This document shows positions 7,546-34,395 of a stretch of DNA of 44,054 bases, piece by piece (position 1 is the first letter of the stretch; each line of letters begins with the position of its first letter). The stretch covers positions 1-44,054 of the IMG/VR virus record IMGVR_UViG_3300044858_005324; one strand, written 5' to 3'. Below the pieces are notes generated by a model. That model saw only the letters and a list, made by a program, of their open reading frames with translations. It had not been told where the DNA came from and made no database searches. A program made the position numbers and the translations under genes. Origin of the DNA: a virus.

Positions 7546-7559
7546 GGACAAGGATGTCC
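7546..7559 (+). promoter_or_regulatory. candidate CsrA-binding hairpin at the fibre gene start
   Basis: GGAC-AAGGAT-GTCC forms a 4-bp stem with a hexaloop that has GGA at positions 3-5 and contains the first bases of the start codon (ATG 7554). Bases 7546-7557 match 11 of 12 positions of the known CsrA consensus RUACARGGAUGU. An alternative 5-bp stem (CCGGA 7541-7545 with TCCGG 7557-7561) would also cover the start. The Shine-Dalgarno GGAGG (7543-7547) overlaps the site. The structure is seen; CsrA binding is inferred, supported by the phage csrA at 28924. Confidence 0.5.
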
Positions 7560-9710
7560 GGGAACTGGCTGCACAACATTAAACACGTCAACCCCGGCGA
7601 GCCTGTACAGGCTGGCATTGTGGGCCGGCCCGATCGCGCACTGGCGGATCGCACGGATTATCTCAAAGACCGCCTTGACGCATCTTCCGTCGGGCAGGCA
7701 TTGTTCGACTCGGGCGCCACAATTGCACCCGATGTGCTTCCCGGACATCCTGTGTACTGGAACTACACATCGCACAGATATGAAAAAGCGCTTGCCGCTG
7801 CAGCCATCGACGCAACCACACAGCTGCTGACTATTCAGCCGTCGTCTGATTGCGTTGGTTTATGCTTGCGTAAACGATCTGAAACGCTTGGCGATATTGT
7901 GCTACGCGGCGTTGTCGAGATCGCCGAGCTGGGAAATGCCGTTACAACTCCGCTGCTCGAAGATAATGTGACTCACGCCCCTATTCCCGCCGGCCGCTAC
8001 TACTTATCCGCCGCTGAGCCGGGCAAGCTGGTGCAGCAGAAGCCGGGCGTAACCGTTAGCGTGTGCTACGTACAGGGCCCGAAAGACAACTGCAGCGACG
8101 TACCGCGCGTTGTCGTAATGCCGCATACAGGCGACTTTATCAGCGAGCACACGCATTACCGATTTGATCTGGTTCCAGCTCCCGCCGGCCAGCACGACCC
8201 TGACGCTGCCGTAAACACCAACCGCCATCAGATCACGAGCCCTAACCCGGCTCTCCCGGGCTGGTTGCCCGCGAACCACGCAAGCTTTAACGGCAAAGCG
8301 CCTGTAGGCGCATGGTTCGGTTACAACCTCGCGCAGCATCCAGCTCTGGCTAATGTTTGGCCGCCTGTGCCAATCCAGTCCGTCGCGCTGCTGTGGGACA
8401 AAGGCGTCAACCGCGTCGGCGCTACAGAAGTGCCGCAGGGTGTTGAGGGGCTTGTCGTATGTGATCTCAACGGCATCTGGTGGATGAGCAACTGCTACGG
8501 CGATGTGCCGTGGCCGGCTACGATCGACACAGCAAACCCGCAAACGCCGCCAGACGCGACGACGGGCGAGTGCCCCCGCGTAGAAGCTATGCGCGTCGTG
8601 GTAGTGTTTTTGCGCATGCTCGTCGGCAACGATCGCAGCGTGGTTACAAGCCTGCAGCCGGATACCGACAGCCCGATCACCGTCACTAATTGCGCGGGCG
8701 CGCCGGCTATGACTGGCGATTTGGCGCTTAACCTGAATCTGCCCGTTGTACCGGAAGAAGCAATCGGCGGGCAGGTATTTAAAGAGCTGGTTTCCGGCCG
8801 CAAGCTCAAGCGTGGCTGGGTTTCCGATGGCGTATTTACGCTGTCAAATCAGCTGTCGATCGCCGGTTCGCGAAATTTATCCGCGCGCACAGTAACGATC
8901 ACGCTGGCAAACCCCGGCGTATTTACTGCCGCTAATCACGGGCTCACCGCAAACGCTCCAGTGCGTTTTAAAACAGCAGGCATTCTGCCCGGCGGCGTGC
9001 TCGCGAATAAAACGTACTACGTGTTAAGCGCAGGTTTGACGACGAACACATTTTGCGTGGCAGACGCGCCGGCTGGAACAGCTGTAATTACGACTGGCCC
9101 GCAAGCCGGCCCGCACACTGTAGAAACAATTCGGCTGTTAACGAATGCCGAAAAAACGGGCTTCAACATTCCGTTGTCGCAAGAAGTGCTCGTGCAGCAG
9201 GGCGTAATCAAGATCGACTACACCGATAATCTGGTGGAGCGGGAAATCGCGCCACAGATCATTCGGCTTGATGATACGGTCGAACGCCTGTATTTAGATA
9301 TCCCGTACATTGGTTTTCCGTCCGGGCAGGCGTCTGCGATTCGGGTTCGATTCAATGTAGCGCACGCGAATTTGGGGTCGAACTTAAATATGAAAGTGCG
9401 CGTGCACTTTTTTGGCCGCGGCGGCACGCCGACACAGGCGGCAACATTGCCTTCCTTGCTTATGACGTATCGCAGAATCCAAGCCCCCGCCACAAATGGT
9501 ACCGCGCTACCAGTGTCGGACACGGCGATTGGCTTTACGTCGAATGTCACGCTGCCTTCTGACACGGCGGTCGTGCGCGACAGCGAGGCGTTTGACGTCG
9601 CAGCGGGCGATACCGTGCTGGTCACGCTGCTCCGAGCAAACAACCCCGCAGACGTGTACGCTGAAGTTGGACTGCTGCGCATTGACGGTATTGTTTACAA
9701 CGTAACATGA
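7554..9710 (+). CDS. large tail fibre / baseplate-attached structural protein
   Basis: 718 residues from ATG 7554, preceded by GGAGG. The first 45 residues read as a phage fibre attachment module: HVNPGEPVQAGIVGRPDRAL then RTDYLKDRL, the pattern found at the N-terminus of many fibre proteins that dock on the baseplate. The remaining sequence is beta-rich with many Pro, Gly and Thr. Examples are a segment near 445-510 with AANHGLTANAPVRF and KTYYVLSAG, typical of phage fibre and gp10-like shaft repeats, and a C-terminal beta domain. It probably begins the host-contact apparatus encoded to 24647. Translation may be controlled by the hairpin at 7546-7559. The receptor-binding role is inferred. 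Confidence 0.65.
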   Translation: MSGNWLHNIKHVNPGEPVQAGIVGRPDRALADRTDYLKDRLDASSVGQALFDSGATIAPDVLPGHPVYWNYTSHRYEKALAAAAIDATTQLLTIQPSSDCVGLCLRKRSETLGDIVLRGVVEIAELGNAVTTPLLEDNVTHAPIPAGRYYLSAAEPGKLVQQKPGVTVSVCYVQGPKDNCSDVPRVVVMPHTGDFISEHTHYRFDLVPAPAGQHDPDAAVNTNRHQITSPNPALPGWLPANHASFNGKAPVGAWFGYNLAQHPALANVWPPVPIQSVALLWDKGVNRVGATEVPQGVEGLVVCDLNGIWWMSNCYGDVPWPATIDTANPQTPPDATTGECPRVEAMRVVVVFLRMLVGNDRSVVTSLQPDTDSPITVTNCAGAPAMTGDLALNLNLPVVPEEAIGGQVFKELVSGRKLKRGWVSDGVFTLSNQLSIAGSRNLSARTVTITLANPGVFTAANHGLTANAPVRFKTAGILPGGVLANKTYYVLSAGLTTNTFCVADAPAGTAVITTGPQAGPHTVETIRLLTNAEKTGFNIPLSQEVLVQQGVIKIDYTDNLVEREIAPQIIRLDDTVERLYLDIPYIGFPSGQASAIRVRFNVAHANLGSNLNMKVRVHFFGRGGTPTQAATLPSLLMTYRRIQAPATNGTALPVSDTAIGFTSNVTLPSDTAVVRDSEAFDVAAGDTVLVTLLRANNPADVYAEVGLLRIDGIVYNVT

Positions 9711-9725
9711 TACCGGGTTGCTGCT

Positions 9726-10667
9726 ATGCCTATTGGAAATTGGAATCTACAGTGGCTTAACCACAATTCGCAGCGGTCTTATCCGCTGACAGAGCAAGCC
9801 ACAAAAACAGATATCACCGGAACGATAACGCTGCCGGACAGTTTTATTGTCGGGCTGTATTTACCGGTGCATTCCGGCATCGCCTTCACGCCCAACAATT
9901 TTTTTATCAGAACGGTTGTTATCGCCCCGACCGGTTTCACAATCACGGTCGCCTACATCGCCGACGACGTAACGATAGATGTAGCAACTGCCGTAATTGC
10001 ACGAAATAATTATGTTGCTAATCAGTCGTATGCGCTGGGCGGTATAAATAACTTTGACGACTGTGTCGGGCGCATTGTACTCGGCGCACTTGATGAAATT
10101 GATAAACTGCCCGCCGGCGCATACACATTTAATTTGGCTGGCGGCGGGCTCGAAACAGACGTCATACGCCCAATGATTCGCGCCGTGTCTCGGCTGCGTG
10201 TGCTTAACAATAATGAACTTAGTGCCCCAATTTACGGCGACGTCGTGCTTGTTGCTGGCACAAATGTCCGGCTTAGCGTTGCGCAGTCGGCAAACACAAC
10301 CGAAATCACATTTGACGCTATTTCCGGCGTGAATCTCAATCAAAGCTGTCAGTGCGCTGTACCGCAAACGGGCGCCTGCATTACGTGCATCAACGGTGTG
10401 TGCAGCACAGACGGCACGTTTACATTTGCGCAAGACGAATGCATCAGTATTCAACCGATCACCAACGGCTTGTCGTTTGCTGACACATGCGCGTCTCCGT
10501 GCTGCGGCTGTACAGAACTGGACGCGATTACACAGCAAATTAACCGTTTCGGCGACGGCGTTACAACGTTACAAAATTTCGTTACGCGACTCGGTTCTGA
10601 GGTCACGCAAATGAGCTTGGTTGTGCTCAGCAGCAAGCTTGGCGACTCAGGCTGCCAGACGGGGTGA
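9726..10667 (+). CDS. adhesin-like structural protein, YPL-family member 1
   Basis: 313 residues. The N-terminus has NWNLQWLNHNSQRSYPL, which shares the (R/D)xYP(L/F) core with the next four genes. The C-terminal half carries a cysteine-rich stretch (QSCQCAVPQTGACITCINGV) including the CINGV form of the INGxxPDxxGN motif shared by the set, and ends in a possible coiled coil (AITQQINRFGDGVTTLQNF, about 275-293). The N-terminal 150 residues look beta-rich. No enzyme motif was seen. The shared ends suggest a set of related baseplate-attached adhesins or decoration proteins that differ in their middle parts. Family unknown to me. Confidence 0.6.
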   Translation: MPIGNWNLQWLNHNSQRSYPLTEQATKTDITGTITLPDSFIVGLYLPVHSGIAFTPNNFFIRTVVIAPTGFTITVAYIADDVTIDVATAVIARNNYVANQSYALGGINNFDDCVGRIVLGALDEIDKLPAGAYTFNLAGGGLETDVIRPMIRAVSRLRVLNNNELSAPIYGDVVLVAGTNVRLSVAQSANTTEITFDAISGVNLNQSCQCAVPQTGACITCINGVCSTDGTFTFAQDECISIQPITNGLSFADTCASPCCGCTELDAITQQINRFGDGVTTLQNFVTRLGSEVTQMSLVVLSSKLGDSGCQTG

Positions 10668-10670
10668 CAT

Positions 10671-12233: not shown

Positions 12234-12236
12234 TTT

Positions 12237-15630: not shown

Positions 15631-18600
15631 ATGACAGAAAACTTGTTCAAAGACTCTAATTGTCCAATTGAGGCCGTGCCAAAAGCCGACTTCAATTTCA
15701 TCGCGCTTGACGTGTGCAACATTCCGCCGGCGCCAAAACCGATCTACGGCTGTACTGCGCCGTTCATCGCTCCCGAGCCGCCCGATGACGTTGGCCCAAC
15801 TTGCCCCGTATTTCTCGCCACCGCGACGCTAAACCTTGGGTACGCGGATGGCGGCAACGGGAACCCGTGTAATATCGGCCCCGCTGCGGCGGTAATCACA
15901 CTTGATAAAAAAGATATAGACCCGTGTACGTACAGCCTCGACTTTGATCTCACGATACCGATTCCAAAACCGCCGTGCGCACCCAATGTAACTATCGGCG
16001 CATTTAATTTTGCGGTAGCGTACGACAAATGCCCATTGCCGCCATCGCGTTTTCTGGTTCAAAAAAATGTCACGGTTGGCGACTGCTCTACGCTAGACGA
16101 ATGTGATTTTAGTTTAGATCTAGAGATCAACGTCCCAATTCCGACACCGGAGTGCCCGCGAATCAATGTAAATTCGTTCGAGGTACTCGCCGGCTATGCG
16201 CCGTACGACGGCAACCCGGGCTGCATAGATAAAAAAGCATTTTTTACCGTTACGCCGCGCATCGAAGTGGGCAGCTGCGACCTACCCGATAAATGCAACT
16301 TTGATATCGACGCAAGCATAGTCGTGCCGATCCCGCGACCGTTGTGTACGTCAATTAATCTTACTAAGTTTAACGTTACAAGCGGCTACTCCAAGGATCT
16401 CTGCCTTGAAAATGGCGCCAATAATTTCAGCATCACGCCAGTGCATATTTTTGGCGACGGCTGTAGTACGCCTGACCAGTGTCGTTTTGATGTTGAGTTG
16501 GAAATTCTTATTCCAATTCCAGCGCCAACCTGCCCCGACATTAATATCAGTAATTTTAAAGTCAACGCCGGTTTTACGGGCCGCGAGTACGACGAAAATA
16601 ATTACCCGCTAGATATTAAATGTTTTGTTGGGCCAGTAAATAAAATTAGCGTGCCGTTCGACGACGGTTGCTACATCGTAAGAACCCTGTGGTATTGCAC
16701 TGGAAATCTGCTTTTAAACTCGTTCAACGGATCGGCTAGCTTGCGCTGTCCGTGCGCAGAGCTATTGGACGACGAAGGTCTGCCGCTATATCCGCCAGAT
16801 TGCGACCAAGCGACAACCCAATACGCTTTCTATACCGGCCCGCAGAATGCTTTGATAACCGGCACGGGCGTAATAACCGGAACTATCGGCGCCGGTATCG
16901 TTTATCCGCCGCCCGACCCGTGGGGTGTTGGCGGTTGGTGGGTGCCCGACGGTGATTTTAGCGGCGCGGAGGTTGTTCCGTGGATGCCGGTCTCGCCAGA
17001 AATTACAGCCTACAACGGCACGCTCGTAACGATAGGCAACAGTTGTACTGGCGAAGTTCGCGACGCAGAAGAAAAACACAGTAAATTTCGCATCACGCCA
17101 ACGATCGTACCCGGAGATTGCAACAATCCAGATCAGTGTAATTTTGACGTTGATTTGCAGGTCGTTCTGCCGCTGCCGCGGCAATTTTGCCCAGTTATTA
17201 ATGTCAACAGTTTCGACGTCGTTACGGCGTATGACGACGCTATTTGTTTTACTGGCGTCGAACAAAAATTTGAAATCACAACAGAGCACATACAGGGCGA
17301 ATGCGATCAACCCGACCAGTGCAATTTTTTAGTAGACCTAGCGCTGGCTATCCCTATTCCGCGCCCACCGTGTCCCGTAATTAATACAAAAACGTTCGAC
17401 GTGTCTGTCGGTTTTGCAGCTGCCGACGCCGAAATCGGCGTAGACAATAAGTGCTTGTTTGGCAAGAACACGCGCTTCGCCATTACGCCGACCATTATTC
17501 CGGGCGGCTGCGACACGCCAGATGAGTGCCAATTTGATGTTGAACTGGAACTCGCCATTCCAATTCCGAAACAACCGTGCCCGAATATTTTTGTTAACAA
17601 TTTCACTGTAGTTAGCGGATTTCAACCGGCAGATATTAACGATAAAAATTCGTGCCTCTATGGCGTCACGCCAGCATTCACCATTACGCCGAGAATTGTT
17701 GTCGGCAATTGCAATACGCCGGACCAGTGCGACTTCGATGTCGATCTTGCTATCGCAGTCCCAATTCCGCGCACGCCGTGCCCAGTTATCAGCGTGCAAA
17801 ATTTTGGGTTAACTGTTGGCTTTATCGGAAACGATTCCGATAGTAAGTGCTTCACAGGAAAAAATAAATTCAGCATTACGTCCGAACACGTGCCGGGCAC
17901 AGACTGTGATGATCCGGGTGAGTGTCGTTTTAACGTTGAGCTAGATTTAGAAGTTCCAATCCCGCGACAGCCGTGCCCAAATCTCAACGTTATAAATGTT
18001 GACGTACGCAGCGGATACATCGTCAGTGGCAGCGGCGGCACTAGTGGCGGCAGCACAAAGCTCTCTTTCACTGCCGCCGGTGGTGGTAATAGTAGCGGCG
18101 GCACGAAGCTCTCGCTCACGGATCCCAATAGCAACAGCGCCGGCGTCGAGTTTTGTCCCGGCGGGTATGCATTAAGGTACACCGTGGTTGGCGACCCCGC
18201 GTCGATCACGTGTGTTTCTATTGACCAACACTGCGCTACCTTGTTGGCGAACGGCTACTTCGACAGCATAGAAAATGGCGTCGTGGTACCCGGGACAATG
18301 GAGCAATGCAGAATACATCTCGCTAGTAGCGGTTTTTCTGCAGACGGGGTGTGTTATGCAGATTCAAATTGTAAAGTATCAAGTAGCGAGAGCGCGACTT
18401 GTTCGGGCGAATACGTCTTAATATACCGCCCCGCCGAATGCGAAGACTGCGGCGACGGGACAGAATGTCGTCAAGTTGAAACATACTGCGCCGGCGAGGT
18501 AGCGGCTGGGCGCTACGCGACAATGGCTGTGTGCAGATCAGCGCAGTACAACATGGCTATGGGTAACGTGTGTTATTCAGATTCAAATTGTCAAATACAA

Positions 18601-21600
18601 AGCGGCAGCGTCACCAATAATGGCGGCGGTGGTGGCGGTGGTGATAGCGGCGGAACACCTGAAAACATTTTTGAGAATTTCACGTCCGGGCTCGCCGTTA
18701 CACCGCGCGTCACGCAGGGCAATTGCGATACGCCCGACCAGTGCGATTTTGATATCGACCTAAAAATCGCAGTCCCGATCCCGCTGCCGCCCTGCCCTAT
18801 TATTGCGGTACAAGCGGTTTCAATGACCGTTGGGTTTACGGACGGCGGCGGCGTTACTTGCGCAGACGGCGAAAACGTTTTGCGCATTACGCCAGAGCAT
18901 ATACCGAGCAGCAGCCACAACGATCCCGGGCAATGCCAATTTAATGTCGAACTGGAGCTGAACGTTCCAATTCCGCGCGCGCCATGCCCGCAGCTGCGGC
19001 TTACAGCTTTTGATGTCACGACAGGCTACGAAACGTGCTCGTCATTGGTGGGTAAATCGAATTACTTTGCAATAACCCCAAACCATAAACTCGGGGAAGG
19101 TTGCGACGATCCCGGCAAGTGCGAATTTGACGTCGAGCTATTACTCGCTATTCCGATTCCAAAACCGCCGTGCCCGGTAATTCGTCGCCGCACTTTCGCG
19201 CAAAACGTGTTTTATAGCACGCAGTGCACAAAAGGACTCGGCGCAAGCAAATTTGAAATAATAAACGCATCGACTACGGATGAGTGCGGCGTCGACAACT
19301 GCGAATTCAACGTCGATCTGGAATTAAACATTCCGATTCCGCCGCCGCCGTGCCCAGTAATTAATGTTAGTCGCTTGGACGTGCGGAGTGGGTATGCCGG
19401 GTCGGCGTGCGTTGCGGGTAAGTCCAGCTCGTTTAGCGTCGTGTCGCGGCAAACACCGGTTGATTGCGGTGCGCCGCAGTGCGAATTTGATCTTGATCTC
19501 GCGATTGTTATCCCGATCCCTGAGCCGCCCTGCGTTGAAATTAAAAGCGGCGAGGTGCGAGTGACCACCGGTTTTGCCGGTGCGGCGTGCGTCAGCGGAA
19601 AACAGAATAAGCTCACAGTCACAAAAAGAACAATTCCGTCGTCGGCGTGCACTACGCCTGACACGTGCGCGTTTGATTTGGCGTTAGATCTTTTTGTGCC
19701 GGTTCCGCCGCCGGTATGCGCGACTATGTCGACGAGCGGCACGTTTTTTACGCGCTACGAAGACGTTGCGCCTTTGCGCACCGGTAGTTTTCTTGCAATC
19801 ACGCCGGTCACCAGCGGCCCAAGTTGTCGAGACCCGGGACAGTGTCTGTATCACTTTGATATCAACATTGACACGCTGCTTCCGCGACCGCCGTGCCCGG
19901 TTATCAATGTTGTAAATCAAAGTTTGCGTGTCGGTTACGGCGCAGCATCGACGGTGCTGCTTGAAATTTTACCAACGCATACGCTGAATATCGGCGTAAA
20001 CGAACCGCCGCAATGTAACTTCGATGTTGTACTGGATTTAGACATCCAAATACCGACGCCGCCGTGCACAATCTGGACTGGCGCCGTCAATGTGACATCA
20101 CTACCGCCGACAGCAGACCCAGTCGGCAGCATGAGCATTACGCCGGCATATTTTCCGGGGCAAAGTTGCGCGACAGACGTTGTCATTAATCTCGGCATTC
20201 CCAAACCGTGTATTCCAGTTATTATTGGTAAAACTGGAACACTTTATTCCGGTAAAGATCTCGACAATACCGTAACGCTTAATGTGGCGCAAACGGATCT
20301 TTGTCGTTGGGAAATCACGCCGTATGTTTCCGTCAAAGCGATTACAGCGTGCCCCATTTTCGGCGCCGGCGACTACAAAATTGACCCGACGCCAGTACAG
20401 TATGCCGGCGGTGGAGAATACACGCCAATTTCCGGCGGTGCTTTATCAATCACACCACGCGGCGATAAAAACGGCGACTGTTTTTATGACATCAAATTAC
20501 TCACCGCGACAAACACGCTACAAGGCGGCACAGTAACTGTTACCGGCGGCAGTCAAAAAATTGGTGGCGGTTATGTAGATATAAAAAATAACGTCGTCAA
20601 TGTCACGGTTACATTAGATACGACTGATTGTCCGTCTGACGGCACCGGCGGCGGTGGGAGCAAAGGCGATCAAGGTGAAAGAGGCGCAACCGGCCCGCAA
20701 GGTAAGACCGGCGCTACTGGCCCCGCTGGCCCAACCGGCCCGCGCGGTTTAATGGGTATGCCGGGCGCTATGGGTATGATGGGCCCGCAAGGCCTGCAGG
20801 GCGAGACGGGCGAAAGCGGACCTAGTGGTCCGACAGGTCCGACCGGCCCCCGCGGCGCAACTGGTCCGCAAGGGCCCGCGGGTCCAGCGGGGCCGCGCGG
20901 TGCAACGGGCCCAACAGGTTGTATTGGTCCAACAGGAGATATGGGGGCGAGTGGCGCAACAGGACTTACAGGCGCTACCGGGGTAACAGGCGCAACAGGA
21001 GTTACCGGCGCAACAGGGCCAAGCGGCGTTACCGGCGCAACAGGCGCAATTGGCGCAACAGGTATAAGCGGCGCAACTGGGCCGAGCGGCGTCGTTGGTG
21101 AAACCGGCCCGATTGGTCAAACCGGCGCCGTAGGCGCCACTGGCGCGCAAGGCGCTACCGGCGTTACAGGCGCAACTGGCGCAACGGGTATAAGCGGAGC
21201 GACAGGCCGCCAAGGCGTGTCGGGTGCAACAGGCCCGCGCGGTCAAACCGGCGCCACAGGCGCCGTTGGCGCGCGCGGCGCAACAGGCGCAACTGGCAAT
21301 CAGGGTATTACCGGCGCGACCGGCGCGCGCGGGTTTACAGGCAGCACGGGCGTTACAGGTGTGCCCGGCGCAGCAGGCGCCGCTGGCCCACGCGGCGTCA
21401 CAGGCGTTACCGGCGCAACGGGCGCAACTGGTGTAACGGGCTTAGTTGGGCCGCGTGGCCTCAAAGGCGATAAGGGCAATAAGGGCGACAGAGGGCTGAC
21501 TGGATCGCCCGGAGCGACAGGTCCGCGCGGAGAAAAAGGCGCGCTGGGCCAAACCGGCCCTCGGGGGCTTCGCGGCGCGCGAGGAACCGCCGGCGCTACT

Positions 21601-23193
21601 GGTCCGATCGGGCCCACGGGCGCGCGGGGGGCAACTGGCGCAATGGGCAACAAGGGCGACCGCGGGATCGACGCCGGCTATGCAGCTGCGTTGTATACGC
21701 GCGGCACATGGAATGATTATTTAGTTTTCGGAAACGTTGAGCTGTTGTCGGATCTCACGGTCGGTAACATCACGAGAAAAGTACCGACGGTTGAAAATGT
21801 AGAGCTAACATATCGTTACGGGCCTTTTAGCGTTGGCGGGGCAGTGATTGTCGTTACGGACGAAGGCCTAGGCTACCGATCAGACCCGCTCTCTGGTCGG
21901 CGGCAACTCAATCCAGTCCCGGAACCAGCCGACGACGACGACGACGGCGTGTCAATGGAAGATGTCATATTGGGCGCGCAACCCCCGGCCGAAGCCGGCG
22001 ACGCGTTTTTATGGTTCAACGATACTTCGACAATCGGGACGATGAACGACGGTTTATTGCCAGACCCGCCGCGCGTCGGGTGGATCAATATTGGGCCGAT
22101 TGATATTAATCTTACAAACACCGATGAATGTTTGAAATACGTACCGGAAGACGTAATTCGAGCGCGCTACGAAGAATACTACACACTTCGCTATAGCGTG
22201 GACATGGCCCGCCCAGATGTCGATCCTGACCCACTTGCACCCCCGCCATCGGCAGAAGACCCGCCAGAACCACCAGCGCGTCGGTATCCGACAACGCGCG
22301 ATTGGTTTATCGGAACAAATCGCACACCGCCCGACCAACTGCCAATTTTTTATAAGGGCCTCGCAACAGATTTTCCGCTGCGTTTGTACGACAACCCGCC
22401 GCGAGACGAATCCAAACCACAGATTCGCCCGCAGCGCTCGCCGACGTATGGTGACTTTTGGATCGAAAAACCGACATTGTTCGCGTACGTATGGACGCCG
22501 TACCAAAAAACAGTAATTGTTGACGGAGCGGAAGAAAAACTCGACATCAAGGGCTGGCAGAAGTTCGATACTATTCTCGACGGGCGTCAAATCGGTCCAA
22601 CTGGTGCGACAGGCTGCGCCGGAGAAACAGGCCCAGAGGGTGAAAGAGGTGCTCCGGGTCTGCCGGGGGCTGCTGGGCCGGCGGGCGTTCAGGGCTCGCG
22701 CGGTGTCACTGGCCCGACGGGCGTTGCCGGCGAAATAGGCGCTACTGGCGCTAGTGGCGTTAGCGGCGCAACGGGTCCGTGCGGAAATGACGGGCAAATA
22801 GGCGCAACCGGTGTCCGTGGTGCAACAGGCCCAACTGGCAATCAGGGTGTTACAGGTGCCACAGGCGCGCAGGGGGCAACTGGTGTGCGCGGTATTACCG
22901 GGCCGGTCGGCGCCCGTGGTGCTACAGGGCCGCAGGGCGCGACCGGACCGCAAATTGCGTTAGTCGGCAATAATTTTATCTCGTCGCGACCGGCTGTGCT
23001 GTCGGGTAATGTTACAATTGTTGATAACGCAGTTATTGGCGCAACAATAGAGTTCAACACAAAAAATCTGGCGGCAGATGCTGATTTTACCACGGCGTTA
23101 ATTACGCAACTTGGTTTGAACACAAACGGACAACCAGTTAACCCGACGTTGCGAGCAAAGTTTCGCGCCTTGATATTAGAGCTGCTGGAATAA
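15631..23193 (+). CDS. giant cysteine-repeat and collagen-like fibre protein
   Basis: 2520 residues. Residues about 90-1555 hold some 17 copies of a roughly 60-residue unit with the core CxTPDQCxFDVDLxLxIPIP then PPCPxI, a hydrophobic strand, a Gly-Phe/Tyr step and a fourth Cys. Two units carry insertions. One (about 350-480) is Pro/Gly-rich; the other (about 800-1010) holds two copies of a Cys module ending in VCY(A/S)DSNC, flanked by Gly/Ser linkers. Residues about 1678-2013 and 2320-2440 are collagen-like Gly-X-Y repeats rich in GAT and GPR/GPQ, split by a globular domain (about 2014-2320). A short C-terminal domain (about 2440-2520) may trimerise the stalk. It is probably a long disulfide-rich fibre for host contact. 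The repeats are seen; the role is inferred. Confidence 0.75.
15900..20290 (+). repeat. protein-coding tandem repeat, about 17 cysteine units of about 60 residues
   Basis: Tandem units within the giant fibre gene. Each has an N-terminal ITPxxxxGxC segment, a second Cys in DQC or its equivalent, the acidic FDVDLxL strand, the IPIPxPPCP hinge with a third Cys, and usually a fourth Cys before a GK step. The DNA of units is diverged, so this is an old expansion rather than a recent tandem copy. The last two units (after about 20050) are degenerate and have lost part of the Cys pattern. Confidence 0.75.
20659..21669 (+). repeat. collagen-like Gly-X-Y repeat, block 1
   Basis: An almost unbroken run of about 112 Gly-X-Y triplets, mostly GAT, GVT, GPQ and GPR. 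At the DNA level it is rich in GGCGCAACAGGC-like steps. Such blocks form rigid trimeric stalks in phage fibres. A 51-base segment (21319-21369) is identical to part of the next gene. Confidence 0.85.
21319..21369 (+). repeat. 51-base exact repeat, copy 1
   Basis: This segment, which encodes [16 protein letters not shown], is identical base for base to 23862-23912 in the next collagen-like gene. Surrounding codons differ, so the identity points to a recent exchange. Confidence 0.85.
22591..22953 (+). repeat. collagen-like Gly-X-Y repeat, block 2
   Basis: About 40 Gly-X-Y triplets following the globular domain of the giant fibre protein, with the same GAT/GPT/GVR style as block 1. The last triplets lead into the short C-terminal domain (IALVGNNF onwards). 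Confidence 0.8.
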
Positions 23194-23198
23194 ATATC

Positions 23199-24647
23199 AT
23201 GACCGAAAACAACGACAATGCGCAGCCAGAAGAAGAAGAGATCGTACTGCAATCTTTCGATGCGCCGGTTTTGCCGCTAACATCTGCCGGTTGCGGCGCT
23301 GCAGTCGGCCCGCCCGGCCCACCCGGACCGCAAGGCGATCCCGGCGCTACTGGTGTTACCGGCGCAACAGGCGCCACTGGCGTTACCGGCGCTACTGGCG
23401 CTGTCGGCGCTACTGGCGCAACCGGCATTCAGGGCGCAACCGGCGTAACCGGCCCGCAGGGCATAACTGGCCCAACAGGCGTTACCGGCGCAACAGGCGC
23501 CGATGGCGTTACCGGCGCTACTGGGGCCACCGGTATTACCGGCGCGACCGGCGCGCGCGGCGCAACAGGCGTTACCGGTATAACAGGTGCAACTGGCGTA
23601 ACAGGCGCCAAAGGGGCCACTGGTACTGCAGGCGCTCGCGGCGCTACGGGCGCAACTGGCGCAACTGGACAAACTGGCCCGCAGGGTTTTGTCGGCCCGC
23701 GCGGCGCTACGGGCGTTACTGGCTTGCGCGGAATTAACGGTATTACCGGCGCGACCGGCGCGCGCGGCGCAACAGGTGCTACCGGGCTGCGCGGGCTTAC
23801 AGGCGCAACCGGCCCAACCGGCCCGCGCGGCGCTACCGGTGTCCGCGGCTCTGTCGGTTCTACCGGCGCGCGCGGGTTTACAGGCAGCACGGGCGTTACA
23901 GGTGTGCCCGGCAGAGACGGCACAAATGGCGTGCCCGGTGCAACCGGCGCAACCGGCCCGGTTGGCCCTGTCGGTGCCGATGGCCCGCGAGGTCCCACCG
24001 GATTACAAGGTTTTCCCGGGCTACTAGGGCCGGAGGGACGACAAGGACCAACAGGCGCTACCGGTCCGCGCGGTTATTTAGGCCCGGCCGGCCCGCGCGG
24101 CCAGCGCGGCCAGCGCGGTGCGCCGAGTGAGACAGGCGCTACGGGCGCAACTGGCCCGCAGGGTGCGGGCGGTATTACGGGCCAAGAAGGCGCTACGGGT
24201 GCGACAGGGCCGGTAGGTATGACTGGCGCTACAGGGCCGTGCGGTAACCCCGGAGAGCGCGGTATAACGGGCGCAAGCGGCCCGGCAGGGGCCGTCGGCC
24301 CCAGCGGCCCTAGCGGCGCTATCGGCCCTAGCGGGGCCACAGGCGCGACGGGCGCGACCGGTCCCGCCGGAAGCACTGGCCCTACAGGCGTAGCTGGCCC
24401 TACAGGCGCATCAGGCCCCACAGGTCCGCTGGGACCAAGCGGACCCCGTGGTGCCGACGGCAATCGCGGAGCCACGGGCGCTACCGGTGTATTGGGTCCG
24501 GCGGGCGCGACCGGACCGCTCGGTCCAGTTGGCGCGACTGGGCCGACGGGGCCAAATGGCGGACTGACAATTAGCCAGCTTGTTGCAGCAATTCAAACAA
24601 ATGCCGTGCTCCGCGCGGCGATTAAAGAGGCAGCAACAAACCCATGA
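23199..24647 (+). CDS. collagen-like fibre protein
   Basis: 482 residues, starting five bases after the giant gene's stop. An acidic N-terminal segment (about 1-35, [19 protein letters not shown]) is followed by one unbroken Gly-X-Y block (about 38-455) dominated by GAT, GVT and GPx triplets. A short C-terminal tail ([20 protein letters not shown]) looks helical and could trimerise. It resembles the collagen blocks of the preceding protein, with which it shares a 51-base exact segment. No globular receptor-binding head is visible, so it may be a stalk or decoration fibre that works with another subunit. Confidence 0.8.
23862..23912 (+). repeat. 51-base exact repeat, copy 2
   Basis: Identical to 21319-21369. 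The next base differs (A here, G in copy 1), as does the preceding one. Confidence 0.85.
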
Positions 24648-26555: not shown

Positions 26556-27023
26556 ATGAAACGCAAACTAAAACTCGATAAAAAACCAGAGAAGGCTAAG
26601 CCGCCGTTCGTCATGGCCGAGCCAAATGACGACGCCGCAGCGTTTGGTTGGTCGCTTGGAAAGCTGCGCTATCCGTCAAAAGACTCCAAACCTGATGACG
26701 TGTGGCCCGGCGCATGTATGTTTGAAGTCCCCGTCCCGTATGAAGTCAAACAAGTTTACGGGCACATCATCGAGTTCATAAACCCGGCGTTTGTGCAACT
26801 CATGCTGGACAGCGACCCCGACATCAGAAAAGGCGCGGAAAAAGTGCGGCGCGCTAATTACACGCCAGAGGCGCTAGCTAAGTATCAGAAAACAATCTTG
26901 ACCGTGTTCACAACCAAGATTGTGCCCGAAATCGTGAAACGTTTTACTGCCGTTGCCGGAAATGTTGCAGAGTTCTATTCTGCCCGGCTCGCCCACATCG
27001 ACACATTTGGACTAGAGGAATAG
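26556..27023 (+). CDS. unknown protein
   Basis: 155 residues, starting 22 bases after the long hairpin. No good Shine-Dalgarno sequence precedes the ATG, which suggests that the hairpin or coupling affects its translation. The N-terminus is very basic (KRKLKLDKKPEKAKPPF). The rest is soluble and mostly helical at the C-terminus (PEALAKYQKTILTVFTTKI, about 104-122). No family recognised. Confidence 0.6.
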   Translation: MKRKLKLDKKPEKAKPPFVMAEPNDDAAAFGWSLGKLRYPSKDSKPDDVWPGACMFEVPVPYEVKQVYGHIIEFINPAFVQLMLDSDPDIRKGAEKVRRANYTPEALAKYQKTILTVFTTKIVPEIVKRFTAVAGNVAEFYSARLAHIDTFGLEE

Positions 27024-27784: not shown

Positions 27785-28304
27785 GGAAACCTCCGGTGAA
27801 AAAAAGAGCCTTACGCTGAATATGGTAATGCGCGTTGTAGAGTTAAGCAAGCTACAAATCCGGTCTATTTTTAACACCATTCTCAGCGCGGAGTTGCCGG
27901 CTGAAACCGACCCGCTGCCGGTTAATGTTATTTTTATCCTGCTCGCTGCGGACATGCTGCATCGGCTGGGGTTCCTGCAGCCGGAACAGCGGGCACTCAT
28001 CCTCGCAAACATCGCGCCGCTGTTTGACGGCAGTTGCGACACGTGCCTAAAGCAGCTTGTGTTTGCCGATAACCGATATTGCACGTGGACCGGCCACACG
28101 GGTTTTACCGATCTCCAAACGGGCGAACAGGTTACGACACTTCCGCATCCTCCCATGGAGACGATTGCGTATAATCTAGGAGAGCTGTACCGCCGGGGCG
28201 TACTGCAGATCGAGAAAAGAGCAGGGATGCATGTCAAACCTAATGCAAATAGCGTGGACGAGTCGGGAAACATTTGGCAGCGTGCTTCTGACGTTGTTTC
28301 TTGA
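27774..28304 (+). CDS. unknown protein with a CxxC pair
   Basis: 176 residues from ATG 27774. A second in-frame ATG at 27783 forms CATG with the minus-strand start and may be the true one; neither has a strong ribosome site. The frame extends to 27564, but that section is antisense to the minus-strand gene and looks Ser/Pro-rich, so I exclude it. Residues 12-85 look helical (LNMVMRVVELSKLQIRSIF; VIFILLAADMLHRLGFL), followed by DGSCDTCLKQLVFADNRYC, a possible small metal site. The 3' end overlaps the next gene by 74 bases. Function unknown. Confidence 0.55.
   Translation: METMETSGEKKSLTLNMVMRVVELSKLQIRSIFNTILSAELPAETDPLPVNVIFILLAADMLHRLGFLQPEQRALILANIAPLFDGSCDTCLKQLVFADNRYCTWTGHTGFTDLQTGEQVTTLPHPPMETIAYNLGELYRRGVLQIEKRAGMHVKPNANSVDESGNIWQRASDVVS
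28221..28230 (+). promoter_or_regulatory. candidate CsrA-type site before gene 28231
   Basis: GC-AGGGAT-GC gives a hexaloop with GGA at positions 3-5, next to ATG 28231. Against ACARGGAUGU it differs only at the outer pair (A-U replaced by G-C), so pairing is kept. The stem is only two base pairs, as in the bare consensus. The match is seen; binding is inferred. Confidence 0.3.
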
Positions 28305-28899
28305 CCGCTTCGGCATGGAGGGGCTGGAATGGGACCCGGCGACTATTGCGCTGGAGATCGAAGAAGAGTTCAACGTCAAGCTGAGCCAGAGTTCGCTAGA
28401 TAAGCTTATCGTCTGCATTCAGATCCTGACCACCGACCGGTTCTTCAAGAATCTGCCAGACTTCATCTCGTTCTGCAACGTGCTGGGCGATGACACATAC
28501 CGCCCGGATATGTGGGACCCGGCCGACGCTGAAGAAATCGCATGGGGTATTACCGAGGCCCTGCTGATCGAACCGCCGGACGAAAAAGACCCGGAACCGT
28601 TTACAGACGAGATCCGCGGGTACATCGGTGCCGTGCTGGACAGCGAGGGCATTATTAATCCGCCCGATATCCTGCGGATTGCTCTGCGCACAAATCGCGT
28701 ATCGAAAAACATCACGGACTTCTCGGACGACCCGGAAATGTTTAACGCTGTCTACGACCTCGAAACAGGCAAGACAGAAGATATCAATAACACCATTCGA
28801 ATAAAGACCAAGTTGTTAGCAGAGCAAATGGCCGCGCTGCATTTAAAAAATGGCAGCACGCAGCATGTCGTTGAAATGCTGCAAAATGTTCACAAATAG
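28231..28899 (+). CDS. unknown acidic protein
   Basis: 222 residues from ATG 28231, which has GCAGGG just upstream; ATG 28227 is in another frame. The protein is acidic and appears helical throughout, for example GLEWDPATIALEIEEEFNV and AEEIAWGITEALLIEPPDEK. A Pro-rich acidic loop separates two helical halves. No signal, membrane segment or catalytic motif is visible and I cannot assign a family. It lies directly before csrA and may share its transcript. Confidence 0.6.
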   Translation: MSNLMQIAWTSRETFGSVLLTLFLDRFGMEGLEWDPATIALEIEEEFNVKLSQSSLDKLIVCIQILTTDRFFKNLPDFISFCNVLGDDTYRPDMWDPADAEEIAWGITEALLIEPPDEKDPEPFTDEIRGYIGAVLDSEGIINPPDILRIALRTNRVSKNITDFSDDPEMFNAVYDLETGKTEDINNTIRIKTKLLAEQMAALHLKNGSTQHVVEMLQNVHK

Positions 28900-28923
28900 C
28901 GGTAACGCTGAAAAGAGGTTGTC

Positions 28924-29124
28924 GTGTTGGTGCTATCTCGGAAGAAGGAAGAAGAGATCATCATTGGCGACCGGATTGTCGTAGTGCGGGTTCTCGAAAT
29001 CTGCGGAGATCGTGTGAAGCTCGGCTTTACGGCACCGGAGGCCGTATCAATCCTGCGCGGTGAAGTAGTCGCCGCCGAACAAAGAAAGCAACGCAAGCAT
29101 GGGGTGGAACGACAGACTCCCTGA
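28924..29124 (+). CDS. csrA: CsrA-type translational regulator
   Basis: 66 residues from GTG 28924 (MLVLSRKKEEEIIIGDRIVV is the classical N-terminus), with AAGAGG five bases before the start. CsrA dimers bind GGA motifs in mRNA leaders and usually block ribosome entry. The RNA-binding strands are present: beta-1 LVLSRK (residues 2-7) and beta-5 region AVSILRGEV (40-48), with Arg45 at the place of E. coli Arg44, one residue shifted by a small insertion. RVKLGFTAPE (30-39) is also typical. The length is normal. Its own leader has no GGA, so simple autorepression is not obvious. Several phage starts carry GGA hairpins (see findings). Family assignment is firm. Confidence 0.93.
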   Translation: MLVLSRKKEEEIIIGDRIVVVRVLEICGDRVKLGFTAPEAVSILRGEVVAAEQRKQRKHGVERQTP

Positions 29125-29518
29125 AGACCCGAATATTCCATATGAATCACAGCAAGACAGAGACGATTACGACGCGTGGGCAGAGTATGTCGAAGACAAT
29201 CGTTCGGCTGTATCTGACGCTAAAAACTGGCTTGTAAAAGTTGTAGCGTACGCAATTGCGGCAGAGACAGTTATGGCCGAGAATAATTTTGCGCTCAAAG
29301 ATCGCGAATATTTGCGCGCGCTGATGAACAGTTATATCAAAGAAGCCATGGAAGATTTTGTAACCTTGACGGGGCAAACGGGGCAAACGCTGACGTCTCA
29401 AAATATTGATCCGGGCGCTCTTGTAACGTTGCCAGAAAACGAACCCGAGCGCGGAACTGTAATACGCGAAACGCTAGAACGTTGTCTAGCGAAGTTTGTT
29501 AGAGGGCCAAAGCAATGA
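29099..29518 (+). CDS. unknown protein
   Basis: 139 residues from ATG 29099, which overlaps the csrA end by 26 bases, so translation is probably coupled. The N-terminus MGWNDRLPEDPNIPYESQQD is rich in acidic and aromatic residues. A helical middle follows (DAKNWLVKVVAYAIAAETVM). No family recognised. The ribosome site is weak (GAAAG), in line with coupling. Confidence 0.6.
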   Translation: MGWNDRLPEDPNIPYESQQDRDDYDAWAEYVEDNRSAVSDAKNWLVKVVAYAIAAETVMAENNFALKDREYLRALMNSYIKEAMEDFVTLTGQTGQTLTSQNIDPGALVTLPENEPERGTVIRETLERCLAKFVRGPKQ

Positions 29519-30869: not shown

Positions 30870-33492
30870 GGGATTGCCTACCTGTTTAGTCCGCCGACAT
30901 CACCACATAAACGCCTTGTCGGCTTTAGGCGTGGCACCGGAAAATCCATCTTTCCCGGCGGTGGTTTCCTGTCCGTTATGTCAACAAAACACGTTACATT
31001 TGTTTGACGACACCATTACGGACGGCATATGGCTGCACTGTAATGCGTGCGCCGCCCATGGAGATATCATAACGTTTGGAGCGGCGATATGGAATACAAG
31101 CCTGCCCAGCACGTTAAAGAAATTTGCCGAGCTGGGACTGGTAAATCAAGGCGAAAAAGACCATTTAGCCGGCGATTACGAACGTACGCTTAGTCGGCAG
31201 CACGCCATCGAGAGCTTTTGGTTCGACGCCGAGGCACAAATATGGAATCACGGCGACGACGTTATCGCGTGCCGATTGCGCGAATTGGGCGTATATCACG
31301 AGATCAATGCGTCCGGGCTTGTCGGCGTTGCGCACAAAGATCAGGTAGTAAAACTATGCGCAGCTCTGGGCAGGGCAAAACCGACAAAATTACGAGAAAA
31401 CGGCGCAACGCTTGTATTCCCGTTTTACGATCTGCCCGGCCGTCTTACCGGCGTCTTACTTGTGCAATACGCCGATGATTTCACGTCCAAGTCAACGTTT
31501 GTGCCAACAACCGGATATCGTCGGCAACGCCCCGACGCCGGTTATTTTTTACTGCATAGCGCGTTGCGTGCCGCCCCTACAGCACTCCGCGGCGCACAAT
31601 TCATTGTTGACGACCCGTTTTGGGCGCTCAGCGCGCAGTGCACACAATTAAAGCGCGGCTTAAACCTTCTGCCTATTATGTCCAGCTATAACGGCACAGA
31701 GGCGAACAGTTACGGCACAAGTTGGCAGGCGTTTCCGGTTATCCCGCGGTTGTTTCATGGCAGCGCAATTACGCCAGAGTTAATCAGTCGCGCGTGCGCA
31801 GCCAAAGGGTATGTCTGCGTTACGCCGCTCACGCATAAAACAAAAAGCCCCAACCCGATCTTAGAGCAACTCGCCAACATTCATAAACACGCGGAAACGT
31901 GGCAAACGAGCTTACAACACACATTACACGGCATGAGCGAAGTCGCCGCGTATTCGTTCGCCTCGCGGTTGCTGGTGCCGCACGAAAAGTTGAACCTGTT
32001 TTTTAAAAAAACGGATACGCAATTTTCACCCGGTTTTGTGACGCGCGTACTTAACTCTGTGTCTGTCACGCCTGCGGCGCCAACCAAAGCCCACCGGCGC
32101 TGGATTGTCATAGAAAAAGAAAATGGCTGGTGGAACCACATCGGGCATCAAGTCTGTTCTGCGCGTGTTGTTATTGAAAAAATTGTGCAGTCGGATACAG
32201 GTGACAGAAGCTATGTCGGCAAAATATACGTCGACGACATTGCTATAGATTTCGTAGACAGCGCGCAAACTATTGAAAACATGGGCCTGCTAGCGTATGC
32301 CGCCGCGACAGCTGCATCGAGCGGAAAACTCATCGTATTTGACCGAGCATGGAATCGTCGCAGTCATTTGCTTGCTATACAGCTGCATCAACCAGAGCTG
32401 GTGGTTGTCTCTAGTCGCATGGGGTGGGATGACCGCAACTCCGTATTCAGATTTGCCGATTACGCTATCGACAGTTTTGGTTGCGCGACAGACACAACGG
32501 CTGGCGTCACGAGAAAAAATAGGATCATTTTTCCGCGACCAACCCTTGTGGGTCCTCCAGCTATCAGACAGTTTTTAACGCCCAGTTACGAAAACGCATT
32601 TGTCTGGAATGTGGTCGCTGCCGTGGCCACAAATCTGCTGGCGCCCATATTGCGTAAAGATAACATTGCGACAGGTATTATCGGAGAAAATTTCGCTGTC
32701 GCGGCCAAACTTGGCGGGGCGCTTGGCTGCCGGCACCTGCGCTTGTCGATGATGCAAAAAAACCACGTCAGCAAACAACTGACTGATTCTACACACGAGT
32801 TAGACTGGCCGCTGTTTGCGTCCAGCGAGTTCAATGACGCCACGTTCAACTCATCTATCGTGAAATGCCATAATCGCCCGCTGCTGTCGCGCCTGACGGC
32901 GATGTCCGCTGCTGTAGCGCCGGGATATAACTGGCAGATCATTCAGGGCACGGCGCCGCCGGCTAACACCGATTTCTCTGTATTCCAGCACATTCTACCG
33001 GCGTACATCCAACGGTCTTTGCGCAACAGAATGCGGCTCGCCGCCCAAGACGAGTCATTTACGCGCGCCGTTATTCGCGATCTGCACGAGTGGCTGACGC
33101 AGACATATGAAGCGTCATTTCAGCTGTCGTGCGCCCAGAATCAGCTGCTCACGCCAGAACTGGCGCATGTTGCCTTGTTAACCGAGCTAAATACCGCAAT
33201 ACAGGCCGAAAAATTGGCGGTTTTGCCGCGGCCAAGACGCAAAGATCAGCCTCAAAATTACGTGCTCCGGCGCAAAGATAACTGGTGGCTAAACCAACGC
33301 GCAATTGACCGTTATTTTTATACCGAACGTACCACTGCCCCAAATTGGCTAATAATTGTAGACTTATTACTCGCCGCCGGCCTCTTTGCCGGCGAAGAAG
33401 TCATACACGGTGCAAACGGAATTCTTGTAAATACAGCTTGGTGTGATCAGTTTTGGCGAAATACTAACTCCATTGTGCGCGAGATAGGCTAA
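30868..33492 (+). CDS. primase-like replication protein with CHC2-type zinc finger
   Basis: 874 residues from ATG 30868 with GCGGGA upstream. Cys35, Cys38, Cys58 and Cys61 form CPLC-x19-CNAC followed by AAHGDIITF, the signature of the zinc-binding domain of DnaG-like and phage primases. A toprim-like stretch may lie around residues 215-255 (GAQFIVDDPFWALSAQ), but its acidic triad is not clear. The C-terminal half (about 470-874) has no clear Walker A; the nearest is IIGENFAVAAKLG, which lacks GKS/T. It may be a primase with a degenerate helicase or a specific C-terminal domain. Zinc domain assignment is good; the overall activity is inferred. Confidence 0.65.
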   Translation: MGLPTCLVRRHHHINALSALGVAPENPSFPAVVSCPLCQQNTLHLFDDTITDGIWLHCNACAAHGDIITFGAAIWNTSLPSTLKKFAELGLVNQGEKDHLAGDYERTLSRQHAIESFWFDAEAQIWNHGDDVIACRLRELGVYHEINASGLVGVAHKDQVVKLCAALGRAKPTKLRENGATLVFPFYDLPGRLTGVLLVQYADDFTSKSTFVPTTGYRRQRPDAGYFLLHSALRAAPTALRGAQFIVDDPFWALSAQCTQLKRGLNLLPIMSSYNGTEANSYGTSWQAFPVIPRLFHGSAITPELISRACAAKGYVCVTPLTHKTKSPNPILEQLANIHKHAETWQTSLQHTLHGMSEVAAYSFASRLLVPHEKLNLFFKKTDTQFSPGFVTRVLNSVSVTPAAPTKAHRRWIVIEKENGWWNHIGHQVCSARVVIEKIVQSDTGDRSYVGKIYVDDIAIDFVDSAQTIENMGLLAYAAATAASSGKLIVFDRAWNRRSHLLAIQLHQPELVVVSSRMGWDDRNSVFRFADYAIDSFGCATDTTAGVTRKNRIIFPRPTLVGPPAIRQFLTPSYENAFVWNVVAAVATNLLAPILRKDNIATGIIGENFAVAAKLGGALGCRHLRLSMMQKNHVSKQLTDSTHELDWPLFASSEFNDATFNSSIVKCHNRPLLSRLTAMSAAVAPGYNWQIIQGTAPPANTDFSVFQHILPAYIQRSLRNRMRLAAQDESFTRAVIRDLHEWLTQTYEASFQLSCAQNQLLTPELAHVALLTELNTAIQAEKLAVLPRPRRKDQPQNYVLRRKDNWWLNQRAIDRYFYTERTTAPNWLIIVDLLLAAGLFAGEEVIHGANGILVNTAWCDQFWRNTNSIVREIG

Positions 33493-33493
33493 C

Positions 33494-33808
33494 ATGCATC
33501 AATCATCGGCTCTGTCGTTAACGTGTAAAAACGTCCACAGTCGTCACGACGACGGTCTCGATGATGATTTTATCGAAGAAGAGTGGCATTTCGTTGACGA
33601 CAACAATGACGATGATGATGACAGCAATATTACTGAGGTTAAACCAAAAGTAAATTTCTACATCGATGACGACGACGACGAAATGTTTGAAGAAGCAGAA
33701 GAATGGGTCGACGATGTCGAAGACGATGACGCACTAGACGATGATGACGACGCGGCTTACGAAGACGATTATGACGCAGATGACGACGAGTACACCGATG
33801 ACGAATAG
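33494..33808 (+). CDS. highly acidic protein
   Basis: 104 residues, starting one base after the primase-like gene stop. After residue 18 it is almost entirely Asp/Glu with aromatic spacers (DDDDDEMFEEAEEWVDDVED). Such proteins may mimic DNA or bind basic proteins, and in phages some act as anti-host or scaffold-type factors. No domain is recognisable. Coding at the DNA level is rich in GAC/GAT, and the antisense Arg/His-rich frame is a shadow. Function is open. Confidence 0.55.
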   Translation: MHQSSALSLTCKNVHSRHDDGLDDDFIEEEWHFVDDNNDDDDDSNITEVKPKVNFYIDDDDDEMFEEAEEWVDDVEDDDALDDDDDAAYEDDYDADDDEYTDDE

Positions 33809-33818
33809 AAGGAGCTAT
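33805..33818 (+). promoter_or_regulatory. candidate CsrA-type hairpin at gene 33817 start
   Basis: ATAG-AAGGAG-CTAT forms a 4-bp stem whose hexaloop AAGGAG is the Shine-Dalgarno sequence, with GGA at loop positions 3-5. The 3' arm contains the first bases of ATG 33817. This is the layout in which CsrA blocks initiation. The structure is seen; binding is inferred. Confidence 0.4.
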
Positions 33819-34278
33819 GCAAACGTTTTTACCGCACGCCAGCTTTCGCAAGTCGGCGCGCTGTCTTGATAACAAAAGGTTGGGTAAACAACGAGTCGAA
33901 TGTAAACAAATCTTATTAGCGCTTGGCGTGGGCATCGGACAACACGAGCCCTACGTATCTCGCTGGCGCAATCATCCGGCCGTAAAAATGTGGACCGGGC
34001 ACGAGCTGGCGTTAGTCGTATACGCCGCCGTCATTTGCCGTGAGTGGATTTCACGCGGCTTCAACGACAACCTGCACCCGGAATTCATGGCAGCGTATGC
34101 GCGGTTGCGACCGCTCGTGGTACACAATCACTATCCGCCGTGGATCGGCAGCCGCAGATTTCACGCATCGCACAGAAGCAACCTGCTGCGTAAAGACTAC
34201 GCGTACTACTCAAAATTTGGCTGGCAAGAACCTGTAGATCTGCCATACTATTGGCCGGAGGCTGCAGCGCTCACGTAA
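33817..34278 (+). CDS. Pyr_excise / MSMEG_6728-like protein (possible pyrimidine-dimer DNA glycosylase)
   Basis: 153 residues with AAGGAG ahead of ATG. The N-terminus MQTFLPHASFRKSARCLDNK then RLGKQRVE matches the MSMEG_6728 family, related to the T4 endonuclease V (Pyr_excise) group. Other family marks are WRNHPAVKMWTGHELAL (about 49-65) and HRSNLLRKDYAYY (about 118-130). T4 endonuclease V cuts DNA at cyclobutane pyrimidine dimers; whether this broader family does so is not settled, so I leave the activity as possible. A DNA repair role would suit a phage exposed to sunlight. Family assignment is good. Confidence 0.75.
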   Translation: MQTFLPHASFRKSARCLDNKRLGKQRVECKQILLALGVGIGQHEPYVSRWRNHPAVKMWTGHELALVVYAAVICREWISRGFNDNLHPEFMAAYARLRPLVVHNHYPPWIGSRRFHASHRSNLLRKDYAYYSKFGWQEPVDLPYYWPEAAALT

Positions 34279-34285
34279 AAAGACT

Positions 34286-34358
34286 GCCAGTGTAGCTCAG
34301 TTGGTAGAGCGTTTGTTTTGTAAACAAAATGTCGCCGGATCGTTCCCGGCCACTGGCT
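34286..34358 (+). tRNA. tRNA-Thr (anticodon TGT)
   Basis: Acceptor stem GCCAGTG (34286-34292) pairs fully with CACTGGC (34351-34357). The D arm is GCTC/GAGC, and the anticodon stem TTTGT/ACAAA encloses loop TTTGTAA with anticodon TGT at 34319-34321, reading ACA (and possibly other ACN) codons. The T stem is GCCGG/CCGGC with loop ATCGTTC. The discriminator is T and CCA is not encoded. The T loop is unusual: the canonical T54-A58 pair is A54-T58 here. All four stems are perfect, so the gene is probably functional. Confidence 0.9.
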
Positions 34359-34371
34359 TTGTTAAAATTTG

Positions 34372-34395
34372 TGGTAAGTCGCGGAGGACTTGCCA
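34372..34395 (+). promoter_or_regulatory. SD-sequestering hairpin with GGA hexaloop (candidate CsrA site)
   Basis: Bases 34372-34380 (TGGTAAGTC) pair with 34387-34395 (GACTTGCCA) over 9 bp with one T-G wobble, enclosing the hexaloop GCGGAG. GGA sits at loop positions 3-5 and is part of the Shine-Dalgarno GGAGG (34383-34387). The A of the start codon ATG 34395 is inside the stem. This is a clear ribosome-blocking structure; CsrA or another factor could stabilise it. Confidence 0.5.

Follow-up and report, generated by a model that had tools for sequence, protein, structure and literature searches.

The RNA ligand of the bacterial regulator CsrA was defined by systematic evolution of ligands by exponential enrichment (SELEX) as RUACARGGAUGU, presented mostly in hexaloops, and by nuclear magnetic resonance of RsmE as ANGGAN (excerpts of PMC7652899, the source for these proteins throughout). 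Genes for such proteins also occur in phages. As far as the cited excerpts go, csrA was counted in 30 of 2517 phage genomes (PMC7366521), phage RsmA was found in GenBank and IMG/VR and proposed to serve host manipulation, CRISPR-Cas included (PMC8450108), phage csrA has been called a moron gene whose product is perhaps virion-associated (PMC9144972), and csrA knock-down in phage PTXU04 gives smaller plaques, the role of the gene in the phage life cycle being described there as previously untested (PMC11879866). Here we analyse IMG/VR virus record IMGVR_UViG_3300044858_005324, the whole of whose 44,054 bases we call the window. It is a fragment from a family of uncultured phages with genomes near 200 kilobases (kb) and encodes a CsrA at 28924-29124. 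Hairpins carrying the CsrA-type loop are strongly enriched at the gene starts of this family, and the phages' own genes probably form a CsrA regulon.

The csrA gene (28924..29124, + strand; 66 amino acids (aa), GTG start) had been recognised in an earlier note written from the bare letters of the window, and the identification is confirmed: its product matches Pfam PF02599 with 68.2 bits against a cut-off of 27 (E-value 6.1e-19) and also PHROG 9500 (CsrA-like). L4 and R45 of the window protein align with L4 and R44 of solved CsrA chains, the highlighted RNA-contact residues of the protein (PMC7652899). By these alignments it is a genuine CsrA with its predicted RNA-contact residues intact. The gene lies above the Pfam cut-off in 15 of 18, 14 of 19 and 21 of 37 further records, in three sets that hold many fragments and some near-duplicates. 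With the conserved gene upstream of csrA (28231..28899, +) as a locus marker, whose alignment found 29 loci, csrA stands directly behind the marker homologue in 26 of them, near-duplicates included. The three loci without csrA (L329-L331) form a single near-identical lineage from which the gene is cleanly absent; there the gene that overlaps the end of csrA in the window (29099..29518, +) directly follows the marker homologue, a natural knock-out of the regulator. Distant relatives G021, G022, G039, G040, G042, G043 and G044 each have two separate CsrA matches. A search of the phage collection gave no match to the window CsrA, and 81 records matched the CsrA of the relative G017.

To survey gene starts, genes were called with a simple script of our own, which agrees with the annotation of phage Arash at 62 of the 72 starts that were checked. 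A site was defined as an ANGGAN hexamer between -25 and +10 of a start, and it counted as closed when flanked by a stem of at least 4 base pairs (bp), G-U pairs allowed. In five records, 78 of 459 ANGGAN hexamers at starts are stem-closed, compared with 2.1% for all hexaloops together, and ANGGAN ranks first of 247 hexaloop classes, the next class reaching 5.6%. Seven records delimit the motif more closely. Around GGA the sole peak is the loop NN-GGA-N (94 of 1102 sites); other loop settings give 47 and 51, where the same helix is one pair longer or shorter, and 10-28 elsewhere. Among first loop bases A alone stands out: 84 of 515 sites with A are stem-closed, 4 of 202 with C, 4 of 220 with G and 2 of 160 with T, and C-G closes 52 of the 84 A-first hairpins. 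Judged by loop and predicted stem, the ligand enriched at the family's gene starts is the known CsrA/RsmE ligand.

Across 12 records, 163 of 1006 ANGGAN hexamers at starts are closed, against 16.8±4.1 (maximum 30) in 1000 shuffles of the flanks that kept the hexamer and the start codon, an excess over shuffled leaders of the kind the earlier note's idea of a phage regulon called for. When each gene group is represented by one random member, ANGGAN sites still stand at 41.5/335 and non-A sites at 6.3/385.5, and 11 of 19 records taken singly exceed all 1000 permutations made within offset classes. Gene interiors (+40 to +160) lack the excess in the three records tried. The sites peak at -11 to -16, -4 and 0 relative to the start, overlapping the Shine-Dalgarno (SD) sequence or the start codon. 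Each of the seven fetched records of at least 190 kb has between 13 and 26 genes with a hairpin at the start; among the 766 gene groups, 68 include a hairpin-bearing member, and in 25 of these the hairpin recurs in two or more genomes. Together, the shuffles and permutations show an excess of coding-strand hairpins in the relatives that bears the marks of selection. The comparison with phages lacking csrA, also foreseen in the earlier note, agrees: five such controls pooled have 10 of 360 ANGGAN sites stem-closed, with 1/87 in Arash, 1/19 in PB1 (40 kb used), 0/23 in CcrColossus (100 kb) and 2/110 in phiM12 (160 kb).

In the window, the hairpin GGAC-AAGGAT-GTCC at 7546..7559 (+) presents an AAGGAT loop (7550-7555) that fits the stem-closed ANGGAN hexaloop, and the start codon (7554-7556) lies in the loop and closing pair. 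The putatively regulated gene (7554..9710, +) encodes a 718-aa tail-region protein, called 'fibre' by position only; a PHROG search with it gave no match. The earlier note had given this hairpin exactly, and by our own count 11 of 12 letters match RUACARGGAUGU. Hairpins of the form A.GG-ATG that hold the AUG of this gene occur in 39 of 55 loci (L020 and 54 of an original 56; in the two that were dropped, the match begins within the protein), and at the same offset in 13 of 14 orthologues; apart from L010, whose loop is one base shorter, the misses are distant members with at most 41% identity in the best segment. The stem reads GGAC/GUCC in near relatives, UGCC/GGCA in L411, GCUC/GAGC in L434 and GGGC/GUCC in L020; its 3' arm doubles as coding sequence, yet pairing is kept. 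Among 20 leaders hand-picked from hairpin-bearing ones, so that full pairing holds by construction, three of the four pairs are changed on both sides, as in 18 of 500 shuffles, and covariation is 0.577 against 0.150±0.051 in shuffles (0/500).

A second conserved hairpin precedes a gene for a 147-aa GNAT acetyltransferase (34395..34838, +; Pfam PF00583 is over the cut-off on the longer open reading frame (ORF) 34329-34838, and the start at 34395 is taken from our gene caller and the orthologues). The earlier note had described a 9-bp stem at 34372-34395; the hairpin is indeed conserved with compensatory changes, and its length was understated, the predicted helix comprising 17 bp, some of them G-U (34364..34403, +). 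The loop GCGGAG (34381-34386) contains the SD, and the AUG (34395) is in the 3' arm. The leader folds at -20.2 kcal/mol (z-score -5.15). Once near-identical copies are set aside, the group yields 12 orthologues, in which 11 of the 17 pairs are changed on both sides; covariation is 0.486 against 0.190±0.032 in shuffles (0/500) and at most 0.129 with slid partners. Only 80% of the cells of this alignment pair, and the outermost part of the helix is not found throughout. The hairpin stands at the same offset, whatever the first loop base, in 10 of 12 members (group 170). From 27 of the 29 csrA-region loci the GNAT gene could be obtained: in 23 of them NNGGAG forms a six-base loop in the predicted fold, in L308, L314 and L326 it lies within a smaller loop at this position, and L328 has no such hairpin. 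These comparisons support the GNAT hairpin as a conserved structure, so that both it and the fibre-region leader pass the check for compensatory changes that the earlier note had outlined. A tRNA-Thr(UGU) gene (34286..34358, +) lies directly upstream, and given this neighbour the GNAT mRNA may begin at the processed tRNA end. By eye, tRNA-like 3' ends also precede the GNAT leader in several relatives.

The remaining sites named in the earlier note gained no support. The candidate ATAG-AAGGAG-CTAT at the start of the pyrimidine-dimer glycosylase gene (33805..33818, +; gene at 33817) is present, but it is not supported: its stability is -1 kcal/mol (z-score -0.18), and it occurs in none of the 10 orthologues, from a total of 11, whose start was located. 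The sites at 28221 and 6888, said to keep pairing where the consensus stem bases change, are ANGGAN loops on 2-bp stems, and their orthologues have 0-3 bp or no motif. At 41209, before 41226, ANGGAN stands without a stem, both here and in the single orthologue having the motif, and at 27012, a site with no orthologue for comparison, the window has no ANGGAN hairpin. From the postulated regulon of fibre, repair and GNAT-like genes, the fibre-region and GNAT leaders are thereby retained, and the repair gene and four weaker sites are not.

Several further gene groups of the relatives carry the hairpin at a fixed offset. Group 68, a 192-aa protein, has it in 10 of 11 members and, in a wider sample, in 42 of 57 loci (L374 left out), the misses being distant members with at most 41% identity in the best segment. 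The corresponding counts are 9/10 for group 124, 8/10 each for groups 6 and 129, and 8/9 both for group 47 (an M10 peptidase with a peptidoglycan-binding domain) and for group 95 (a protein whose HD-like match stays below the Pfam cut-off). Group 24 has the hairpin in 5 of 13 members at one offset, or 8 of 13 when differing called starts are allowed; its protein matches the major capsid protein 6wkk weakly (E-value 0.0045). Structure predictions by AlphaFold for the proteins of groups 24 and 68 reached a mean predicted local distance difference test score of only 31.6 and 30.9, respectively.

In G005, G008, G010, G014 and G018, two hairpins lie 26-27 nucleotides (nt) apart before an AUG, and in these five genomes the stem changes preserve pairing. 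Hairpin pairs 18-27 nt apart occur at starts in some relatives, and the window has single ANGGAN hairpins (stem of at least 4 bp) only; the range over which a CsrA dimer bridges two sites is 10-63 nt (PMC7652899). The tandem arrangement was considered as a sponge RNA and dropped: an AUG, upstream of the called start, directly follows the second hairpin, and we therefore read it as a double-site leader. A search of 14 records for a CsrB-like sponge, taken as a cluster of at least three ANGGAN hairpins within 150 nt, found none. An intergenic, ANGGA-dense stretch on the minus strand of G017 (about 66644-66695 in script coordinates) is a possible sponge candidate.

The most far-reaching reading, toward which we lean slightly, is that a deep clade of phages of about 200 kb uses CsrA as its own timing regulator, through evolved hexaloop hairpins and independently of any host Csr circuit. 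In the mechanism that we propose as probable, a CsrA dimer would bind the hexaloops, in a few leaders as a bridge between two hairpins 18-27 nt apart, and would thereby block entry of the 30S subunit both where the SD and where the AUG lies in the loop. Production of the tail-region protein, the probable capsid protein and its neighbours, the M10 peptidase and others would be delayed until free CsrA is exhausted or outnumbered, which would give the protein its role in timing. At the GNAT leader, where a long stem pairs the AUG, CsrA could stabilise the sequestering hairpin in a switch of the RsmA-psl type, or the direction could reverse, with CsrA opening the stem that hides the AUG; both actions have precedents, since CsrA stabilises the hairpin at psl and opens it at ymdA (PMC7652899). 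The phage CsrA would be the reader of the sites, and host CsrA may share the task.

Several observations weigh against such a regulon. Eight of the 19 records, each of at most 88 kb and the window among them, give no significant permutation result. The leaders of csrA itself (n=14) lack an ANGGAN hairpin, even one of 3 bp, and thus give no sign of autoregulation; in G000 and G011 the start was called inside the gene and the true leader was only read by eye. The csrA-less Vibrio phage D181, one of the five controls, is mildly raised (6/121, with 45 of 1000 permutations as high). Conversely, the unrelated csrA-bearing phages F116 and Vibrio D65 have 0/18 and 0/35 sites closed and PTXU04 has 2/32 with annotated starts, which means that the mere presence of csrA does not entail targets among phage genes and that this clade differs. 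The PTXU04 (MK373772) hairpins, at the starts 29400 (+) and 35869 (-), those of gp26 and gp36, are candidate sites. Some distant csrA-bearing members of the family show none either (G042 0/20, G049 0/15, G062 0/3). The GNAT loop of the window starts with G and so is not ANGGAN, and G-first loops are not enriched, which makes CsrA binding less sure in this particular phage. Finally, csrA-less G027 keeps hairpins, at 5 of 29 ANGGAN sites in 56.9 kb.

This last case bears on which CsrA reads the sites. The lineage G027/G028/G035 has lost csrA, and among the hairpins of G027 are the fibre-region and group 68 ones, a hairpin ggaac(ATGGAG)gttcc and, in shorter form, that of GNAT. As a natural knock-out the lineage gives a mixed answer: its hairpins are largely kept and its GNAT fold is weaker (-9.9 kcal/mol), and the csrA-bearing loci L332/L333 are comparably weak (-10.2 kcal/mol), with L328 again lacking such a hairpin. 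Perhaps csrA was lost only recently, or perhaps host CsrA stands in. If host CsrA read the hairpins, phage genes would be tuned to host physiology and phage csrA would serve other ends, such as host manipulation. We consider this unlikely. The retained hairpins speak for it, but Arash and PB1 show no excess in Salmonella and Pseudomonas, hosts that presumably bear CsrA, and the distant csrA-less records G041, G045/46 and G051 (177-205 kb, about 20 kb each seen) have 1/27 together. The host targets proposed for phage RsmA (PMC8450108, in the part cited) also fit a host reader. Among relatives, with about 20-60 kb per record, 11 of 85 sites are stem-closed without csrA and 69 of 327 with it; G047 (0/5; CsrA match below cut-off) is left out, some csrA-less records are fragments, and both counts are biased upward because the loci were chosen around hairpin genes. 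The phage's own CsrA is the likely reader, since hairpins and csrA are shared through the deep clade and csrA-less controls have no comparable excess; the csrA-less lineage that keeps its hairpins weighs against this, and host CsrA may be the reader instead.

Could the hairpins act without CsrA? General initiation-region structures, for SD display, mRNA stability or thermosensing, would account for the SD within many loops and for a GNAT leader that is very stable and keeps its stem whether A, G or T comes first in the loop. We regard this explanation as very improbable, because the requirement for A as first loop base, GGA at positions 3-5 and a loop length of 6 looks like protein recognition, some hairpins occupy offsets (0, +5 and +7) at which GGA is not an SD, and the control phages lack a comparable excess. 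As for the GNAT leader alone, it is conceivable, if on balance doubtful, that it is an independent switch sequestering SD and AUG, possibly linked to maturation of the tRNA before it, rather than a CsrA target in the window. Its 17-bp stem and G-first loop fit such a switch, SELEX ligands having mostly at most 4 contiguous stem pairs (PMC7652899), as does the mixed first loop base of the 12 orthologues, window included (A 6, G 5, T 1); half of them being A-first, and the prevalence of the six-base NNGGAG loop among the GNAT loci, point back to CsrA. Chance remains, the earlier note having cautioned that GGA belongs to ordinary SD sequences. The caution is sound for the window taken alone, where 2 of 13 ANGGAN start sites have a stem of at least 4 bp and 334 of 1000 permutations are equally high, and chance fits the site at 33805. 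Family-wide it is refuted by the shuffles and permutations, and as a general explanation it is negligible.

The affiliation of the window was followed through its GpA-type large terminase (38903..40852). A profile search matched 170 stretches, the best 80 of which were used, and the best match in the phage collection is Salmonella phage Arash with 28.9% identity over 76%, so that, judged by the terminase, no cultured phage is closely related. The same profile found no relative in genome contigs searched for a host. G001, a 66-kb record, belongs to the same phage, with a mean identity of 100% (rounded) across 45 protein pairs, and the tail-region ORF has relatives at 16 viral loci, of which 7 lie on contigs of at least 190 kb. 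Other window proteins include a baseplate wedge and a sigma-factor-like protein; the latter (1760-2569) adjoins baseplate genes, and the sigma factor gp10 of Arash likewise lies among structural genes. At 15631-24647 a 2520-aa protein and a 482-aa collagen-like protein with GXT repeats both match tail-fibre PHROGs. A 104-aa ORF before the glycosylase gene (33494-33808) is Asp-rich and extremely acidic.

Phage csrA genes with proposed host targets are already known. Within the parts of the open-licence PubMed Central literature that our search covered, no description of CsrA sites in phage genes came up; subscription papers and preprints lay outside it. Phage csrA is widespread and in one case affects plaque size, and the targets proposed in print lie in the host. 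Because phage genes here carry the ligand genome-wide and apparently under selection, the question of targets becomes directly testable with a single protein and a few short RNAs. If the proposal is true, phage gene control would gain a post-transcriptional level in the form of a defined regulon whose code can be read, and a sequence rule is available for finding similar regulons in other phages.

The closest parallel is the repression of cellular mRNAs such as glgC, hcnA and psl by CsrA, RsmA and RsmE, which share with the present case the protein family, the ANGGAN hexaloop and the placement over SD or AUG (PMC7652899). Unlike in the cellular Csr systems, the putative targets here are phage genes and no CsrB-like sponge was seen in the 14 records, and the GNAT stems of these phages are far longer than the SELEX ligands of CsrA. 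Phage-borne csrA is likewise known in F116, in Bcep22-like JC1 (gp47) and in PTXU04 (gp28); unlike the present family, F116 and Vibrio D65 lack start hairpins and PTXU04 has its two. T4 RegA and the MS2 coat protein are phage-encoded translational repressors. As with these, a phage protein would act on the starts of phage mRNAs, binding by the phage CsrA being what we propose here. The proteins and ligands differ, however: in this family a bacterial global regulator, together with a fixed hairpin motif, would serve the purpose.

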